A DNA stretch of 50,585 bases, taken from the NCBI GenBank assembly GCA_903899655.1, contig CAIUKF010000017.1:1-50585 (forward strand), read 5' to 3'. How positions within the stretch are numbered: the stretch's first letter is position 1; every line of letters begins with the position of its first letter. Below the pieces are notes generated by a model, which did not search any database, was not told where the DNA came from, and was given only the letters and a program-made list of their open reading frames with translations. Of this stretch, positions 2,227 through 42,563 are shown in pieces. Source of the stretch: an uncultured bacterium (GTDB taxonomy: Bacteria; Patescibacteriota; Saccharimonadia; Saccharimonadales; Saccharimonadaceae). The translations under genes were made by a program, and so were the position numbers.

Positions 2227-3849
2227 ATGGACGAAGATAAAATACAGCAAAATCGTCGCGAGGCGGATGAACAAGCAACTGCACAACGTGCAGCGATTTT
2301 GGGTATTAAATATCTGGATACGCGTCAGATTGAGAACACGATTGAACTAGCTCAGAACGTACTTGATATTCCCGTCATGCATCAAAATCGATTAGTGCCG
2401 TTGGTGGCTGGTAATGAGGGTCAACCTTGGCAATTTGGCGCTACAACCCAAACACCCCAATCTTATATTCGTGAATTAACCCAACAATACAACTCGGTTG
2501 GTCACAATATTCAGTTTTTCTTGATTAGTAACAGTGGTTATAAGCAAATTATGGATCGGTTTGACCCAGTTATCAAAGTAATTCATGACGATATTAAAAT
2601 TGCCAGCGAAGGTGACAGTAATACGATTACCCAGGTTAGCCAAACTTTAAATTCAGTTGGCAGTGATGAGGTTTTTGATTATCTTGTCGACCAAGCCGAC
2701 CGTTTAGGCGCCAGCGATATCCACATCGAAAATCAACGCACTCACATGCGAATTAGAATGCGTATTGATGGTGTGTTACACCCCGTAGCTGATCTTGAAA
2801 ATGACCGATACCGTATTATTTTAGGTGCTTTGGCATCAAGGGCTAATATTTCAACGGCGTCCAAAGAAGCTCAATCTGGCCACATGCAAAAAGAGATTAC
2901 TCGTGATGGTGCGACACATATGTTGAACTTACGTGTCGAAACTGTGCCAACGATGTACGGTCAAGACGCAGTTCTAAGGTTGTTTAACTTTGATCAATCA
3001 ATGTTGAATTTGGACAGATTAGGAATTGATCCAATTGAAAGGTCTCAGATTGATGAAATTGTTAGTCATCCGCGCGGCATGGTACTGATGGTTGGTCCAA
3101 CCGGCAGTGGTAAATCAACGACACTTTACAGTATTATTAACGCGCTAAATACAACTGATCGCAAAATAATTACCTTGGAAGACCCAATTGAATATGGCAT
3201 TACTGGTATTACTCAAATTCCGGTTGATACAACTGGTGGTCAAAGTTTTGCCGAAGGTTTGCGTTCGGTTTTGCGTCTGGACCCTGATGTTGTGATGGTG
3301 GGTGAGATTCGTGACGCTGACACCGCCAAGACAGCTATACAGGCGTCAATCACTGGTCACTTGGTACTTTCCAGCTTTCACGCAAATTCGTCGGCAGCGG
3401 CCTTTAGTCGTATGATTGACCTGATTGGTGTTAATCCAATCTTTAGTTCGGCGATTCGTTTAATTATTGCTCAGCGTTTAGTCAGGCGACTGGATGACGA
3501 AACAAAAGAAGAATACGAGCCAGATGAATCAACCCGCAAATGGGTCCAAAATGCCTTGAAAGATTTGCCGTCACATATTGAAAAGCCCGACCTTAATACC
3601 TTTAAATTGTGGCGTCCCGTTATCACTGATTCGTCACCGTTTGGTTTCAAAGGCCGAATCGTGATCATGGAACAAATGGTGGTTGATGAAGATATTCAAA
3701 AGTTCTTGCGCGGTGACGAAGCTGATGTCCATACTGAAATTATCGAACGGGTGGCCCGTAAAAACGGTATGGTGACATTGATGGAGCGTGGAATTTTGGC
3801 GGCGCTTCGTGGCGAAACGACACTAGATGAAATAAATCAGGCAATTTAG
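2227..3849 (+). CDS. pilB: Type IV pilus assembly / type II secretion ATPase (PilB/GspE)
   Basis: A 540-residue hexameric secretion ATPase that would power extension of type IV pili. An N-terminal T2SSE_N-like region (to about residue 130) precedes the ATPase core. The core shows Walker A GPTGSGKSTT, the Asp box ITLEDPIEY, Walker B DPDVVMVGEIRD and the His box TGHLVLSSFHAN. The usual tetracysteine zinc motif after the His box is missing: the equivalent region reads RPVITDSSPFGFKGR with no Cys. It is far from other pilus genes here, so it acts with components encoded elsewhere. TATGAT at 2213-2218 lies 8 nt before the ATG, consistent with leaderless transcription. The symbol pilB is chosen over gspE because CPR bacteria commonly carry type IV pili. 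Confidence 0.9.
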   Translation: MDEDKIQQNRREADEQATAQRAAILGIKYLDTRQIENTIELAQNVLDIPVMHQNRLVPLVAGNEGQPWQFGATTQTPQSYIRELTQQYNSVGHNIQFFLISNSGYKQIMDRFDPVIKVIHDDIKIASEGDSNTITQVSQTLNSVGSDEVFDYLVDQADRLGASDIHIENQRTHMRIRMRIDGVLHPVADLENDRYRIILGALASRANISTASKEAQSGHMQKEITRDGATHMLNLRVETVPTMYGQDAVLRLFNFDQSMLNLDRLGIDPIERSQIDEIVSHPRGMVLMVGPTGSGKSTTLYSIINALNTTDRKIITLEDPIEYGITGITQIPVDTTGGQSFAEGLRSVLRLDPDVVMVGEIRDADTAKTAIQASITGHLVLSSFHANSSAAAFSRMIDLIGVNPIFSSAIRLIIAQRLVRRLDDETKEEYEPDESTRKWVQNALKDLPSHIEKPDLNTFKLWRPVITDSSPFGFKGRIVIMEQMVVDEDIQKFLRGDEADVHTEIIERVARKNGMVTLMERGILAALRGETTLDEINQAI

Positions 3850-18903: not shown

Positions 18904-20118
18904 ATGAAACTGTCTGAAGAACTAGCTTGGCGCGGCTTTATCAATCAAACAACTTACGCAGATATTACAGTTTTGGATGGTGATCCAATTTCGTTTTACT
19001 TTGGTGTTGACCCCAGTGCTGACAGTATGACAATCGGTAATTTAGCAGCGGCGATGATGGTGCGACATTTTATCGACCATGGCCACAAAGCTTATCTGTT
19101 AGTTGGTGGTGCAACTGGTATGATTGGTGATCCAGACGGCAAAGCTAGTGAACGTAATCTTAAAACGCTGGAAGAAATTTCCAAAAATAAGGCTGGTATT
19201 GCGGCGCAATATAAACAAGTCTTTGCCTGTAAAGATTTTACATTGGTTGATAACTACGATTGGTTTAAAGAAATTAATTTTTTGGATTTTTTGCGTAATG
19301 TCGGTAAATATGTGCCGATGAGTCAAATGTTGGGGCGAGATTTTGTGCAATCACGTTTGGGCAATGAAGGTGCAGGAATCAGTTATGCTGAGTTTAGTTA
19401 TTCGTTAATTCAAGGCTATGATTTTGTTCATTTATTTCGCGAACATGGCGTAACCTTGCAACTTTGTGGCGCTGATCAATGGGGTAATTCAGTTACTGGT
19501 GTCGATTTGATTAGGCGTTTAGAAGGCAAGAACGTTGATGTTTACTCGACTCCACTGATTATTAACAAATCGACAGGTGTTAAATTTGGTAAATCTGAAG
19601 GTGGAGCAATTTGGTTGGATGCCAACAAAACCAGTGTTTATAAATTTTACCAATTTTGGTTGAATGCTGATGATGATGGCGTGATCGATTATTTGAAAGT
19701 GTTTACGCTACTGAATAAGGACGAAATTGATCAACTTGACCAACAAAAGCAATCAAATCCTGGCTTACGTCAAGCTCAAAAAGCTTTGGCGCAAGCTGTC
19801 ACGACCTTAGTTCACGGTGCTGATCGAACGGTGAGCGTTGAGCATGTAACTGATGTGCTTTTTGGTGGAGCCGACTTTTCGACGCTATCTAGCGATGAAC
19901 TAGACTCATTATCGGCCGAAATACCTACAGCAGGGCCGAATAAAACTGTGGTTGAATATCTAATCGAATTAGAAATCGCCACTAGTAACGGCGACGCTAG
20001 ACGTTTATTAACTGGTAACGCCATTACTGTTAATGGCCAAAAAGTTACAGAAGATCGACAAATCACTGAACCAAGTTTGCTTAAAAAAGGCAAAAACAGC
20101 TTTGTATTAATTCGTTAA
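18904..20118 (+). CDS. tyrS: Tyrosyl-tRNA synthetase with altered HIGH motif
   Basis: A class Ic aminoacyl-tRNA synthetase that attaches tyrosine to tRNA-Tyr. The 404 residues contain the Rossmann catalytic domain (FYFGVDPSADS, GGATGMIGDPDGK, LQGYDF-type block, QLCGADQWGNS), a KMSKS-like loop KFGKS near 228 and a C-terminal S4 RNA-binding domain (about 340-404, LIELEIATSNGDARRLL). The HIGH signature reads TIGN at 43-46, so both histidines are replaced, while the KMSKS-side residues look normal. The SD is weak (GGGGA at 18893-18897). The rest of the protein is well conserved, so it is probably functional. Confidence 0.95.
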   Translation: MKLSEELAWRGFINQTTYADITVLDGDPISFYFGVDPSADSMTIGNLAAAMMVRHFIDHGHKAYLLVGGATGMIGDPDGKASERNLKTLEEISKNKAGIAAQYKQVFACKDFTLVDNYDWFKEINFLDFLRNVGKYVPMSQMLGRDFVQSRLGNEGAGISYAEFSYSLIQGYDFVHLFREHGVTLQLCGADQWGNSVTGVDLIRRLEGKNVDVYSTPLIINKSTGVKFGKSEGGAIWLDANKTSVYKFYQFWLNADDDGVIDYLKVFTLLNKDEIDQLDQQKQSNPGLRQAQKALAQAVTTLVHGADRTVSVEHVTDVLFGGADFSTLSSDELDSLSAEIPTAGPNKTVVEYLIELEIATSNGDARRLLTGNAITVNGQKVTEDRQITEPSLLKKGKNSFVLIR

Positions 20119-38989: not shown

Positions 38990-39001
38990 ACCTCATGACT
39001 T

Positions 39002-39036
39002 GGCCCGTTAAAGAACGTTACATTCTTTAACGGGCC
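39002..39036. repeat. Perfect 14-bp hairpin sharing CCCGTTA with the hisS/tig arms
   Basis: GGCCCGTTAAAGAA (39002-39015) with TTCTTTAACGGGCC (39023-39036), loop CGTTACA. Its CCCGTTA-AGAA core resembles the CCCGTTAGAAC core of the arms upstream of hisS and tig. Confidence 0.6.
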
Positions 39037-39079
39037 TTGCAATAAACAGATAAAAATGTAAAAATTATAGGTAATGAGT

Positions 39080-39179
39080 CCCGTTAGAACTCTGCAATAT
39101 AGTTATTCGAATCAAATGCTTTTGCGTATCAAACGGTTGATTTTTATAAAAATTAATTATAGAAAGGAGTTCTAACGGG
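39080..39179 (+). promoter_or_regulatory. Inverted-arm control region upstream of hisS
   Basis: CCCGTTAGAACTC (39080-39092) is the exact complement of GAGTTCTAACGGG (39167-39179), with 74 nt between. The 3' arm includes part of the SD AAAGGAG and ends at the ATG (39180). A -35/-10 pair, TTGCGT (39123-39128) and TATAAA (39146-39151) with a 17-bp spacer, lies between the arms, so the 5' arm is probably upstream of the transcription start and the pair may be operators. An RNA hairpin on read-through transcripts is the alternative. Confidence 0.65.
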
Positions 39180-40478
39180 ATGAGCGCATTATCATCACAA
39201 CCATATAAAGGTACCAGAGATTATTATCCTGAGGATAAAAGAATCCAAAATTATATTTTTTCAGTTTGGCGAAAAACAGCTGAATCATATGGGTATGAGG
39301 AATATGGTGCGTCAATTTTGGAACCATTGGAAGTTTATACGGCTAAAAGTGGTCAAGAACTGGCCAACGAACAAACTTATACATTCGTTGATCGTGGCGG
39401 CCGAACCGTAGCGATTAGGCCTGAAATGACGCCAACGATTAGTCGTATGGTGGCAGCGCGCCGCCAAGAATTGTCTTATCCTGCTCGGTTATATTCGATT
39501 GCTAACTTTATGCGCTATGAACGTCCACAACGTGGTCGTGAGCGTGAGTTTTGGCAATTAAACGTTGATACTTTTGGGTCTGATGGCGTTGGTGCCGAGG
39601 CCGAGATTTTGACATTGGCTGACAGCATTATGAAGGCCTTTGGCGCTAAATCTGAAGATTACGTTATCAAGATTAACAATCGCAAGTTGATTAACTTTAT
39701 GATGGCGCAATATTTGGGTTTGGATGTGGCGCAAGCGCAATTTATGATTAAACTATTTGACCGTAAAAACAAGATTACGGACAAAGATTTTACCGATCAA
39801 GCGGCTGAAATTTTTGGAGAACAAGCCGAAGTTGGTATGCAAAAGATTAATGCCTTGTTGCAAGCTAAAAGCATGGCTGAACTACCCGAAGAAATTCGTG
39901 AGAGTGAAACTGTTCGTGAAGTTCAAGAACTATTTACACTACTTGAACGATCTGATGTGGCCAGTGCTGTATTTGACATTACTTTGATGCGTGGACTTGA
40001 TTATTACACCGGCATGGTGTTTGAGGTTTATGACACGCACCCTGATAATAATCGCGCGCTGTTTGGTGGCGGTCGTTATGATGGTTTGGTTGGATTATTT
40101 GGTGCCGAGCCTATATCGGCGGTTGGTATGGCACCAGGTGGCACGATGATGGAGAACTTTTTGGTGGTTCACGGATTGTTACCTAAATTTAGGTCAACTA
40201 CTGACGTTTACGTGGCGGCATTGGGTGATGTTGCCCGTGAGGCCAGCAAATTAGCTCGTGATTTACGCGCGGCTGGTATTAATGTTGAACTTGATTTGTC
40301 GGGTCACAAATTAGACCGTCAAATCAAAACAGCTATCAAAAAGGCTATTCCGTATGTCATCTTTATTGGTGAACAAGAAGTGGCTAGTGGAATATATACA
40401 ATTAAAAATATCGCCAAATCCGAAGAATATAAGTTAGGTTTTGCTGAGTTATTGAACAAAATTAAGGAGTCCCGTTAG
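39180..40478 (+). CDS. hisS: Histidyl-tRNA synthetase
   Basis: A class II synthetase that charges tRNA-His. The 432 residues contain motif 1 (GTRDYYPEDKRIQ), ILEPLEVYTAKSG, motif 2 (YERPQRGREREFWQLNVDTFG, about 112-132), the His-A loop RGLDYYTGMVFEVY (about 271-284) and motif 3 GGGRYDGLV (about 297-305), plus a C-terminal anticodon-binding domain. The SD AAAGGAG is good. The last codons and the stop overlap the 5' arm of the next control region (tig), so the genes are linked. Confidence 0.97.
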   Translation: MSALSSQPYKGTRDYYPEDKRIQNYIFSVWRKTAESYGYEEYGASILEPLEVYTAKSGQELANEQTYTFVDRGGRTVAIRPEMTPTISRMVAARRQELSYPARLYSIANFMRYERPQRGREREFWQLNVDTFGSDGVGAEAEILTLADSIMKAFGAKSEDYVIKINNRKLINFMMAQYLGLDVAQAQFMIKLFDRKNKITDKDFTDQAAEIFGEQAEVGMQKINALLQAKSMAELPEEIRESETVREVQELFTLLERSDVASAVFDITLMRGLDYYTGMVFEVYDTHPDNNRALFGGGRYDGLVGLFGAEPISAVGMAPGGTMMENFLVVHGLLPKFRSTTDVYVAALGDVAREASKLARDLRAAGINVELDLSGHKLDRQIKTAIKKAIPYVIFIGEQEVASGIYTIKNIAKSEEYKLGFAELLNKIKESR

Positions 40479-40570
40479 AACTCTTTAGTTTTTGAATGGA
40501 TAATGTAATACAATTGATTGAACACACAAATTTGCTATAACTACTAATTTTTATAAGGAGCTCTAACGGG
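40471..40570 (+). promoter_or_regulatory. Inverted-arm control region upstream of tig
   Basis: CCCGTTAGAACTC (40471-40483) and GAGCTCTAACGGG (40558-40570) are complementary except at one position. The distance is again exactly 74 nt. The 3' arm overlaps the SD AAGGAG (40555-40560) and ends at the ATG (40571). TTGATT/TATAAC with a 16-bp spacer lies inside. The 5' arm overlaps the hisS stop codon. Confidence 0.65.
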
Positions 40571-41857
40571 ATGGAATCATCTGTCAAAAACGTATCAGAC
40601 ACTAAAGTTGTCGTCACAATTAAACTTAACGCTGAAAATTTAGCAGTTGCTGAACAAGTTGCAGCGACCAAACTGGCACGCAATGTCAAAGTTGCCGGTT
40701 TTCGTAAGGGCAAAACGCCAATTGCTGTCGCGATTAAAAATATTGACCCAGCGATGTTACAAGAAGAAACAATGAATAATGCAATTAGCAAAGCAGTATC
40801 TGAAGCATTTATTGGTAATGAAATTCAAGCGTTGGACCGTCCAGCGGTTGAAATTAAGAAGTTTGTGCCAGGTGAATCGATGGAATTTACTGCCGAAGCC
40901 GAAATTTTACCTAAAATTAAACTTGGTAATTACAAAAAATTAAAAGCGACAGTTGAAAAAGTCGTTGTATCAGACAAAGACATTAATGAAATTATTGATC
41001 GCATGCGTAATGCTTTTGCTGAAAAAGCTGAAGTTACACGAGCTGCAAAATTAGGTGACGAAACTGTGATTGATTTTGTTGGTAAAAAAGACGGCGTAGC
41101 CTTTGACGGTGGCACAGGTAATGACTATCCATTAACACTGGGCTCAAAGCAATTTATTACTGGGTTTGAAGAGGGAATTGTTGGACATAGTGCCGGCGAG
41201 ACGTTTGATTTGGACTTAACTTTCCCAGCCGATTACGGTTCAGCTGATTTGAAGGGTGCTAAAGTTACCTTTACGACGACACTGAAAACCGTCAAAGAAG
41301 TCGTATTACCTGAAGTAAATGATGAATTTGCCGCCAAAACTGGTCCATTCAAGACCGTTGCCGAATTAAAGGCTGACATTGAACGTGAATTAACGTCTCA
41401 AAAAGAGCGTGAAAATAACGAAAAATTGAAGGACGACTTGGTCAGTCAATTAGTCGCTGCTAGCCATGTGCCAGTACCTGAGATTTTAGTTGCCGACCAA
41501 GCAAAATCAATCGAACAAGATTTTACGAATAATTTGATGTATCAAGGTATATCACTAGAACAATATTTGGAAAACAAAGGCTTTGAGTCCAAAGAAAAAT
41601 GGCTGGAAACTGAAGTTAACGAAGTTGCCGTTAAACGTGTCAAAGCTGGTTTGGCCCTAGCCGAATTAAGCAAGGTTGAAAAAGTTGAAGCGACAGTTGC
41701 TGAACTGGACGCCCACGTTGAAACTTACCGCCAACAATATGCCAAAAACGCCGAAGCTTTGAAGCAATTCGAACAACCCGAAGTCCGCCGCGATATTGCT
41801 AATCGATTGTTGACTGAAAAAACGGTTGATTTGTTGGTTTCGTTCAACAAGAAGTAG
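40571..41857 (+). CDS. tig: Trigger factor
   Basis: A ribosome-bound chaperone and peptidyl-prolyl isomerase that meets nascent chains. The 428 residues begin with the ribosome-binding domain containing the signature GFRKGKTP (about 48-55). An FKBP-like PPIase domain follows (about 155-240, GDETVIDFVGKKDGVAFDGG and the GFEEGIVGHSAGE block), then the C-terminal helical domain. It is followed by clpP, the usual partner order, but clpX is absent here. Confidence 0.96.
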   Translation: MESSVKNVSDTKVVVTIKLNAENLAVAEQVAATKLARNVKVAGFRKGKTPIAVAIKNIDPAMLQEETMNNAISKAVSEAFIGNEIQALDRPAVEIKKFVPGESMEFTAEAEILPKIKLGNYKKLKATVEKVVVSDKDINEIIDRMRNAFAEKAEVTRAAKLGDETVIDFVGKKDGVAFDGGTGNDYPLTLGSKQFITGFEEGIVGHSAGETFDLDLTFPADYGSADLKGAKVTFTTTLKTVKEVVLPEVNDEFAAKTGPFKTVAELKADIERELTSQKERENNEKLKDDLVSQLVAASHVPVPEILVADQAKSIEQDFTNNLMYQGISLEQYLENKGFESKEKWLETEVNEVAVKRVKAGLALAELSKVEKVEATVAELDAHVETYRQQYAKNAEALKQFEQPEVRRDIANRLLTEKTVDLLVSFNKK

Positions 41858-41911
41858 CTATTGGAAGATGGCGGATTACAATCGCGCCAATAGCCAATAG
41901 CCAATAGCCAA
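41855..41911. repeat. Dispersed GGCTATTGG/CCAATAGCC intergenic repeat, copy C
   Basis: TAGCTATTGGAAGATGGC, then GGATTACAATCGCG, then CCAATAGCCAA with the TAGCCAA unit repeated three times. Copy B has the same order with a few substitutions. It fills the tig-clpP gap up to the CIRCE element. Confidence 0.7.
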
Positions 41912-41912
41912 T

Positions 41913-41939
41913 TTAGCACTCATTTGAAAGGAGTGCTAA
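41913..41939 (+). promoter_or_regulatory. CIRCE element (HrcA operator) upstream of clpP
   Basis: TTAGCACTC (41913-41921), 9-nt spacer, GAGTGCTAA (41931-41939): an exact match to the CIRCE consensus. The -35 box TTGAAA (41924-41929) lies inside the spacer and the -10 TATAAT is at 41947-41952 (17-bp spacing), so bound HrcA would block the promoter. HrcA itself is not in the window. Confidence 0.93.
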
Positions 41940-41960: not shown

Positions 41961-42563
41961 ATGAGTACAAGGAAACCTGGGAATTATTTGGTGCCGACGG
42001 TTGTTGAGAAGACGTTTGATGGTGAGCGGGCTTATGATATCTATTCACGTTTGTTAAACGAGCGAATTATCTTTTTGGGTGAAGAGGTGAATGAACACAC
42101 GGCTAATATTGTTGTGGCGCAACTGCTACATCTAGCGTACGCTGATCCTAAAAAGGATATAAAATTGTATATTAACAGTCCTGGCGGCACGATTTATGAC
42201 GGCATGGCGATTTATGACACGATGCAATACATTACACCTGACGTGCAGACGATTGGTATTGGTTTACAGGCCAGTATGGGCGCTTTTTTGCTGTCCAGTG
42301 GCGCTAAAGGCAAACGATTTATGTTGCCACATAGTAAAGTTATGATTCATCAACCCAGCAGTGGTACACGCGGCCGCGTGTCGGACATGGAGATTGATTT
42401 AAAGGAAAATTTATCTGTCAAAGATATGTTGGACAAGATTTTGGCTGAAAATACCGGTCAAAAATTGTCCAAAATCAAACAAGACGTTGATCGTGATTAT
42501 TGGATGACTGCGGCCGAGGCTAAAGAATACGGTTTGATTGACGAAGTGATTGCTAAGGCTTAA
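41961..42563 (+). CDS. clpP: ATP-dependent Clp protease proteolytic subunit ClpP
   Basis: A serine protease that forms the Clp degradation chamber with ClpC (10085). The 200 residues contain [22 protein letters not shown], the active Ser in [14 protein letters not shown] (S105), His in MIHQPSSG (H130) and Asp in VDRDYWM (D179). TATAAT at 41947-41952 lies 8 nt before the ATG, so the mRNA is probably leaderless. Heat-stress control by HrcA/CIRCE is strongly indicated by the operator over its promoter. Confidence 0.97.

Follow-up and report, generated by a model that had tools for sequence, protein, structure and literature searches.

A palindromic mobile element at the start codons of hisS and tig in a Saccharibacteria lineage, with a possible relay of translation

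The window, i.e., the whole stretch of DNA analysed (50,585 nucleotides), belongs to the genome of a Saccharibacterium, with 924,537 bp in 18 contigs (labelled G000 hereinafter), and the genomes compared in this work are metagenome-assembled. Two genes, hisS and tig, follow each other on the forward strand, and their identities as the genes for histidyl-tRNA synthetase and trigger factor were confirmed by Pfam. Each of them is preceded by a pair of inverted arms, which are embedded in the following set of features:

38999-39002 and 39036-39039, no strand: perfect 4-bp duplication CTTG flanking the 33-bp palindrome
39003-39035, no strand: 33-bp palindromic short element G-CCCGTTAAAGAACGTTACATTCTTTAACGGG-C in the hisS upstream region (38999-39039 with its flanks)
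39037-39073, forward strand: conserved hisS upstream block TTGCAATAAACAGATAAAAATGTAAAAATTATA, found directly before the hisS ATG in many element-free genus relatives
39074-39175, forward strand: upstream reading frame of 33 codons, MSPVRTLQYSYSNQMLLRIKRLIFIKINYRKEF, beginning at the original hisS start codon, with its stop TAA within the right arm, 7 nt upstream of the hisS start
39075-39078, no strand: left target duplication TGAG, 4 bp
39079-39180, forward strand: element copy at hisS, T-CCCGTTAGAACTC ... GAGTTCTAACGGG-A; relatives have an empty site, and copies occur elsewhere
39166-39169, forward strand: Shine-Dalgarno GGAG of hisS, within and next to the right arm and paired in the predicted RNA hairpin
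39180-40478, forward strand: hisS, histidyl-tRNA synthetase, whose stop TAG (40476-40478) falls in the left arm of the tig copy
39181-39184, no strand: right target duplication TGAG, corresponding to hisS codons 1-2
40470-40571, forward strand: element copy at tig, T-CCCGTTAGAACTC ... GAGCTCTAACGGG-A; relatives have an empty site
40557-40560, forward strand: Shine-Dalgarno GGAG of tig, within and next to the right arm
40571-41857, forward strand: tig, trigger factor
41913-41939: perfect CIRCE TTAGCACTC-ATTTGAAAG-GAGTGCTAA, upstream of a clpP-like gene at 41961

The original prediction had described, before hisS, the arm CCCGTTAGAACTC at 39080-39092 and its perfect complement at 39167-39179, with 74 nt between them and the ATG (39180) adjoining, and, before tig, a second pair (40471-40483 and 40558-40570) with one mismatch, again 74 nt apart and again adjoining the ATG (40571). 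Both pairs were found as described, and so was the overlap of their right arms with the Shine-Dalgarno motif GGAG. It had overlooked that the arms of both genes extend by one further complementary base (T...A), that a copy of the gene's first bases precedes the left arm (ATGAGT at hisS), that the inter-arm segment of the hisS copy is an open reading frame, and that a third, short member of the family, the 33-bp palindrome, lies at 39003-39035; the site of the latter is empty in the genome G016 (locus L064, which reads ...ctcgaCTTGcattaaacag). The promoter-like stretch AATTTTTATAA that it had seen enclosed by the arms is missing from other copies of the element, and the idea of a conserved promoter within the element was therefore rejected. 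The conserved block at 39037-39073 is a putative promoter, from which a leaderless or near-leaderless transcript might start. As for known RNAs, only two tRNAs in the window matched Rfam families; the arm element had no Rfam match, so that an Rfam family such as the T-box was ruled out for the arm region.

Arms with up to two mismatches pair at the identical offset of 87 at ten places in this 0.92-Mb genome, far more often than chance would produce, and three further pairs with other spacings bring the total to 13, a count obtained, like the other genome-wide ones, by pattern searches that decayed copies escape; two unpaired matches of CCCGTTAGA, which look like chance, are all that remain. 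The comparison of loci revealed that the hisS site is empty in 23 genus relatives. Indeed, G016 reads ...cagataaaaatgtaaaaattatagaac joined directly to ATGAGTACACTATCATCACAACCA, versus ...cagataaaaatgtaaaaattataggta-ATGAG-(T CCCGTT...AACGGG A)-TGAGCGCATTATCATCACAACCA in the window. The tig site is likewise empty in relatives, and the alaS site is empty in 24 of them (G012 reads tataatcaacagat joined to ATGAATGCA) and occupied in this genome and in G024. The element, T-CCCGTTAGAACTC...GAGTTCTAACGGG-A, is about 102 bp long and its target duplication is the 4-bp TGAN, which matches at 4/4 positions in 29 of the 37 unique genus copies. A duplication of 6 bp (ATGAGT) was rejected in favour of 4 bp plus a terminal base borne by the element, given the exchanges between ATG and GTG: in three copies ended by C..G, a gene formerly starting with ATG now starts with GTG, and in two copies ended by T..A, a left start GTG is accompanied by ATG at the present gene start. 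Since C..G copies give GTG starts and T..A copies give ATG starts, the outer base belongs to the element; at hisS, the element ends with the A of the ATG. At tig, neither a clear target duplication nor a separate leader start codon is present, the frame entering the left arm and stopping there being hisS itself. At the level of sequence comparison, the arm pairs are well shown to be the ends of a mobile element inserted into the start codon. The insertion point lies within the start codon, after its first base (A^TGAN), and 4 bp (TGAN) were duplicated; the new start codon takes its first base from the end of the element and its TG from the target.

A survey of the genus, based on a pattern that made no demand for a start codon, yielded 40 copies (37 unique), distributed in 5 out of 28 genomes, with 1 to about 20 copies each and none in the others. 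Of the 40 copies, 39 adjoin, without any gap, the start codon of a gene at least 73 codons long, and their orientation is the same throughout; the single exception lies about 25 nt upstream of a 218-codon frame. The element locus of one of the carriers, G016, matches Candidatus Saccharibacteria bacterium CG2_30_41_52. The target genes include alaS, tyrS, hisS, tig, tsaD, ftsX, rpiB, and those coding for L18, L19, ATP synthase epsilon, polymerase III delta', and a UvrD-like helicase, which have no common pathway.

This distribution bears on one of the two options that the original prediction had put forward, i.e., that a looping repressor related to CIRCE/HrcA might bind the arms as paired DNA operators. 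Inverted 13-bp arms, the same 74-nt spacing at ten places in this genome, and an arm core just one base off the CIRCE half-site would fit this idea. However, searching the genome and its relatives for the arms, as it had suggested, confirmed the fixed offset at ten places here and showed that spacing varies in the genus (element length 64-101 nt, or about 64-133 bp overall when distant copies are included), and nearly all relatives lack the arms at hisS, tig, and alaS, an outcome which had been named beforehand as evidence against the prediction. Moreover, the genes hit are housekeeping genes unrelated to one another; there is covariation at arm positions 0 and 10-12, for which half-sites of one protein would have no need; the arms differ in sequence and spacing from TTAGCACTC-N9-GAGTGCTAA; and the genuine CIRCE stands separately, before the clpP-like gene. 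We regard the probability of such operators as close to negligible. In front of that CIRCE, AATAGCC heptamers are arranged in tandem (at about 41888-41909), and similar heptamers are present near other genes of this genome and also in G004.

The reading frame that starts from the old start codon is open through the element in 29 of the 37 genus copies, versus 5 of 37 for each of the other two forward frames and versus 5.9 on average, and never more than 15, when the interiors were shuffled 5000 times, counts whose units are not fully independent, the copies being related by descent. The lengths of the genus elements are distributed 28:8:1 modulo 3. The leader stop starts at -7 (TAACGGG followed by ATG) in 25 copies and overlaps the gene start as ATGA (-1) in four; the other eight copies have early leader stops, every one of them past the left arm. 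On the gene side, 34 of the 37 copies carry a Shine-Dalgarno motif, versus five on the opposite side. By contrast, among the distant copies located at start codons the motif occurs in 1 out of 27 and an open frame in 7 out of 27, and the lengths are distributed 11:8:8 modulo 3; thus, the frame and the motif are features of this lineage. A functional leader peptide was set aside, as no clear purifying selection acts on its sequence (pN/pS of 0.74, versus 0.70 in a control frame), and therefore translation itself, rather than the peptide, seems to matter. The positions of the leader stops correspond to the geometry of translational coupling, and we infer the coupling itself from frame, stops, and motif. 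For annotation purposes, the small 'MNPVR...' open frames of these genomes should be considered parts of the repeat and not ordinary genes.

The second option of the original prediction, an RNA hairpin covering the Shine-Dalgarno motif, agrees with the data: the motif is at the right arm in almost all the genus copies, 13 positions are paired, with covariation, and the predicted folds are stable (energies between -25 and -37 kcal/mol, z from -2.3 to -6.0), with a hairpin of 13-16 bp over the motif beside the start codon. Arm position 0 and positions 10-12 vary and yet stay complementary; in the phylum set, covarying positions are complementary in 59-61 of 64 copies versus about 29-41 expected if they were independent, and pairing drops to chance at position 13, i.e., sharply after 13 bp. 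Because the phylum set includes copies located away from genes, the stem is probably needed for mobility too. Neither of the two earlier options, operator or hairpin, accounts for the nature of the element, which is a mobile insertion.

In translational attenuators of the erm and cat type, translation of a leader opens a hairpin over the Shine-Dalgarno sequence of the next gene. The element resembles them, by sequence and predicted fold, in that a leader frame overlaps a hairpin masking the next Shine-Dalgarno motif; it differs from them in that the leader is brought by a mobile element to unrelated targets, with no sign of a ligand or of a stall sequence and with a peptide that is not conserved. 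One might speculate that we are dealing with a conserved regulatory RNA leader of this kind, governing a regulon by hairpin opening, the spread of which would be secondary. The 13-bp stem with compensatory changes, the stable folds, the leader frame with its coupled stop, and the occurrence, beyond chance, of several sites common to the distant species G000 and G024 speak in its favour, but they have to be set against the patchy presence in five of 28 genus genomes, the clean empty sites and target duplications, the interiors that differ in sequence and length even at shared sites, targets without a common pathway, and the same arms and duplications found away from gene starts in distant genomes. 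We hence judge a conserved attenuator to be improbable.

The reading that we prefer is that of a start-codon mobile element plus a translational relay, to which, taken as a whole, we assign a probability of roughly 0.8. According to this reading, each arm pair marks a non-autonomous, MITE-like palindromic element of about 102 bp, belonging to a Patescibacteria-wide family. Once the element is in place, the former promoter or ribosome-binding site and the former start codon would drive a short frame across it, which ends at -7 or -1 relative to the gene start, and the right arm gives the gene a new Shine-Dalgarno motif. In the RNA, the arms would form the 13-16 bp hairpin masking this motif; the anatomy of the copies suggests that a ribosome translating the leader might pass the left arm, open the hairpin, and hand translation on to the gene. 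Such a relay might represent a way for selfish DNA to persist cheaply in a very small genome, that is, by inserting into a start codon with its own ribosome-binding site and passing the ribosome on, so that an invaded essential gene can still be made. Essential genes whose sites are occupied in some genomes and empty in others also constitute natural material for studying translational coupling in Patescibacteria, where experiments are rare.

The two distant species G000 and G024 are both hit at hisS, tig, alaS, a family 2 glycosyltransferase gene, and a gene for a 162-aa protein, i.e., five common target genes versus about 0.3 expected, with a hypergeometric probability below 1e-5 when 14 and 20 target genes and an assumed total of 850 are entered (the actual G000 count being 13). 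The interiors of the two species are related at alaS and at the 162-aa gene, and apparently unrelated at hisS, tig, and the glycosyltransferase gene. At the start of this same glycosyltransferase gene, G016 and G017 harbor elements of 100 and 76 bp, respectively, different from each other, whose duplications (TGAG vs. TGCG) each fit the second codon of their own species. In the tree based on hisS and tig, G024 groups with G003 and G017, and G000 with G016 and G021; vertical inheritance of all the shared sites was rejected, as this tree splits G024 from G000 and G016 and G021 are empty at hisS. The different interiors and duplications and the topology of the tree therefore make independent insertion into the same start codons likely for several genes.

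Within the preferred reading, a further question is whether the element selects start codons at all, or whether insertion is random at TNNA targets and only the harmless insertions at start codons survive. Among 287 sampled genomes of Patescibacteria, 27 have pairs with the same ends, and a reversed control pattern had no match; in these distant genomes, the duplication is again of 4 bp, mostly TNNA, in most copies. Start codons are the site of most copies in G127 and G213, but not in G299 and G159. Copies such as those of G299, mostly off start codons and with the same kind of duplication, and the intergenic location of the short palindrome in the window would agree with survival alone; on the other hand, the five genus genomes contain no intergenic full-length copy, even though such insertions should be tolerated, and the start codons of the same genes have been hit by different elements in different species. 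We consider the two outcomes nearly balanced, the scales tipping slightly against survival alone.

No mobilising enzyme was identified among the DDE and Y1 families considered. The DDE family PF01609 is absent from G000 and gave one weak match in the distant genome G297, and PF13701 had no match in G000 and the other genomes searched; nor did G000 contain a long element with the same ends, all CCCGTTAGA matches being accounted for. A different possibility is that the element is of the REP/RAYT type and that a Y1 (HUH) transposase mobilises it as a folded single strand. As in REP/BIME, the repeats form hairpins; at variable positions it is the pairing of the stem, and not the sequence, that is conserved; the family includes short hairpins of 27-51 nt; and Y1_Tnp (PF01797) is present in all five genus carriers. 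However, it is also present in 12 of 23 non-carriers (Fisher 0.12), the arms do not flank the Y1 genes, the copy-rich genomes G299 and G213 gave no Y1 match, and the duplication of the target is a clear 4-bp one. Insertions of the IS200/IS605 type are not known to make a target duplication. The Y1 transposase was rejected as a partner, because the arms do not flank it and the association is not significant, and we deem movement by a REP/RAYT-type mechanism quite unlikely. We infer that the start-codon element is actively mobile through an enzyme acting in trans. Beside the Y1 gene of G000 (L161 1047-1351, G000:C8), two terminator-like hairpins are located inside 65-nt direct repeats, whose ends (GGACTTGAAACTCCGACCTCG) resemble a tRNA 3' end.

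By structure, the element is a MITE. Bacterial MITEs (Correia, RUP, BOX, ERIC, MITEAba12) are described as short, with terminal inverted repeats, a target duplication, and no transposase of their own, some of them carrying promoters (PMC10969869). The element shares with them its shortness, arms of 13 bp including the terminal pair, the target duplication, and the absence of a transposase gene; a parent insertion sequence was not found in G000 with the two DDE families. Unlike in MITEs, the arms covary instead of keeping one fixed sequence. The closest known case is that of the Rickettsia palindromic elements, small palindromic repeats found within the genes of reduced genomes, where they leave the frame open (PMC10969869), as the element reported here does. 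Nevertheless, Rickettsia palindromic elements lie inside frames and add a peptide to the protein, whereas this one sits at the start codon, has a frame of its own that ends at the gene start, and gives the gene its Shine-Dalgarno motif and first base. Indeed, wherever the leader of a full-length genus copy is open, it stops at -7 or -1, and only a distant copy (L119) or a short one (L245) is in frame with the gene. The passages of that review taken into account do not contain the words 'start codon' and describe neither placement at start codons nor a coupled leader. In the literature, mostly outside subscription journals, nothing matched start-codon MITEs, Patescibacteria MITEs, or the repeat itself, and no element was encountered there that combines a position at the start codon with a relay leader.

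The data point to a mobilising system common to the phylum. It might even be, although we find this rather doubtful, that a phylum-wide class of mobile DNA exists whose recognition relies on a folded 13-bp stem instead of an invariant end, which duplicates 4 bp, is without a DDE or Y1 parent, and has become start-codon-specific, with a relay of translation, in one Saccharibacteria lineage.

Some other members or look-alikes of the family deserve mention. Viral contigs contained four types of arm pair, none of which is clearly at a start codon except one that precedes a 260-aa frame with an imperfect duplication; one 91-bp pair recurs at one site in five IMG/VR contigs (L255, L256, L257, L259, and L260), with no matching duplication. 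G299 harbors a second size class of about 126-133 bp with CCCGTTAGAAGGCC-type arms, which is intergenic (L141 at 8760, L142 at about 19395-19521, and L143 at about 3533-3666) and in one case has a TATG duplication. Lastly, L245 (G017:C1:159817-159867) is a 51-bp member located at a start codon, the length of which keeps the frame and would give a 377-aa protein an N-terminal MNPVR... extension, as Rickettsia palindromic elements do.
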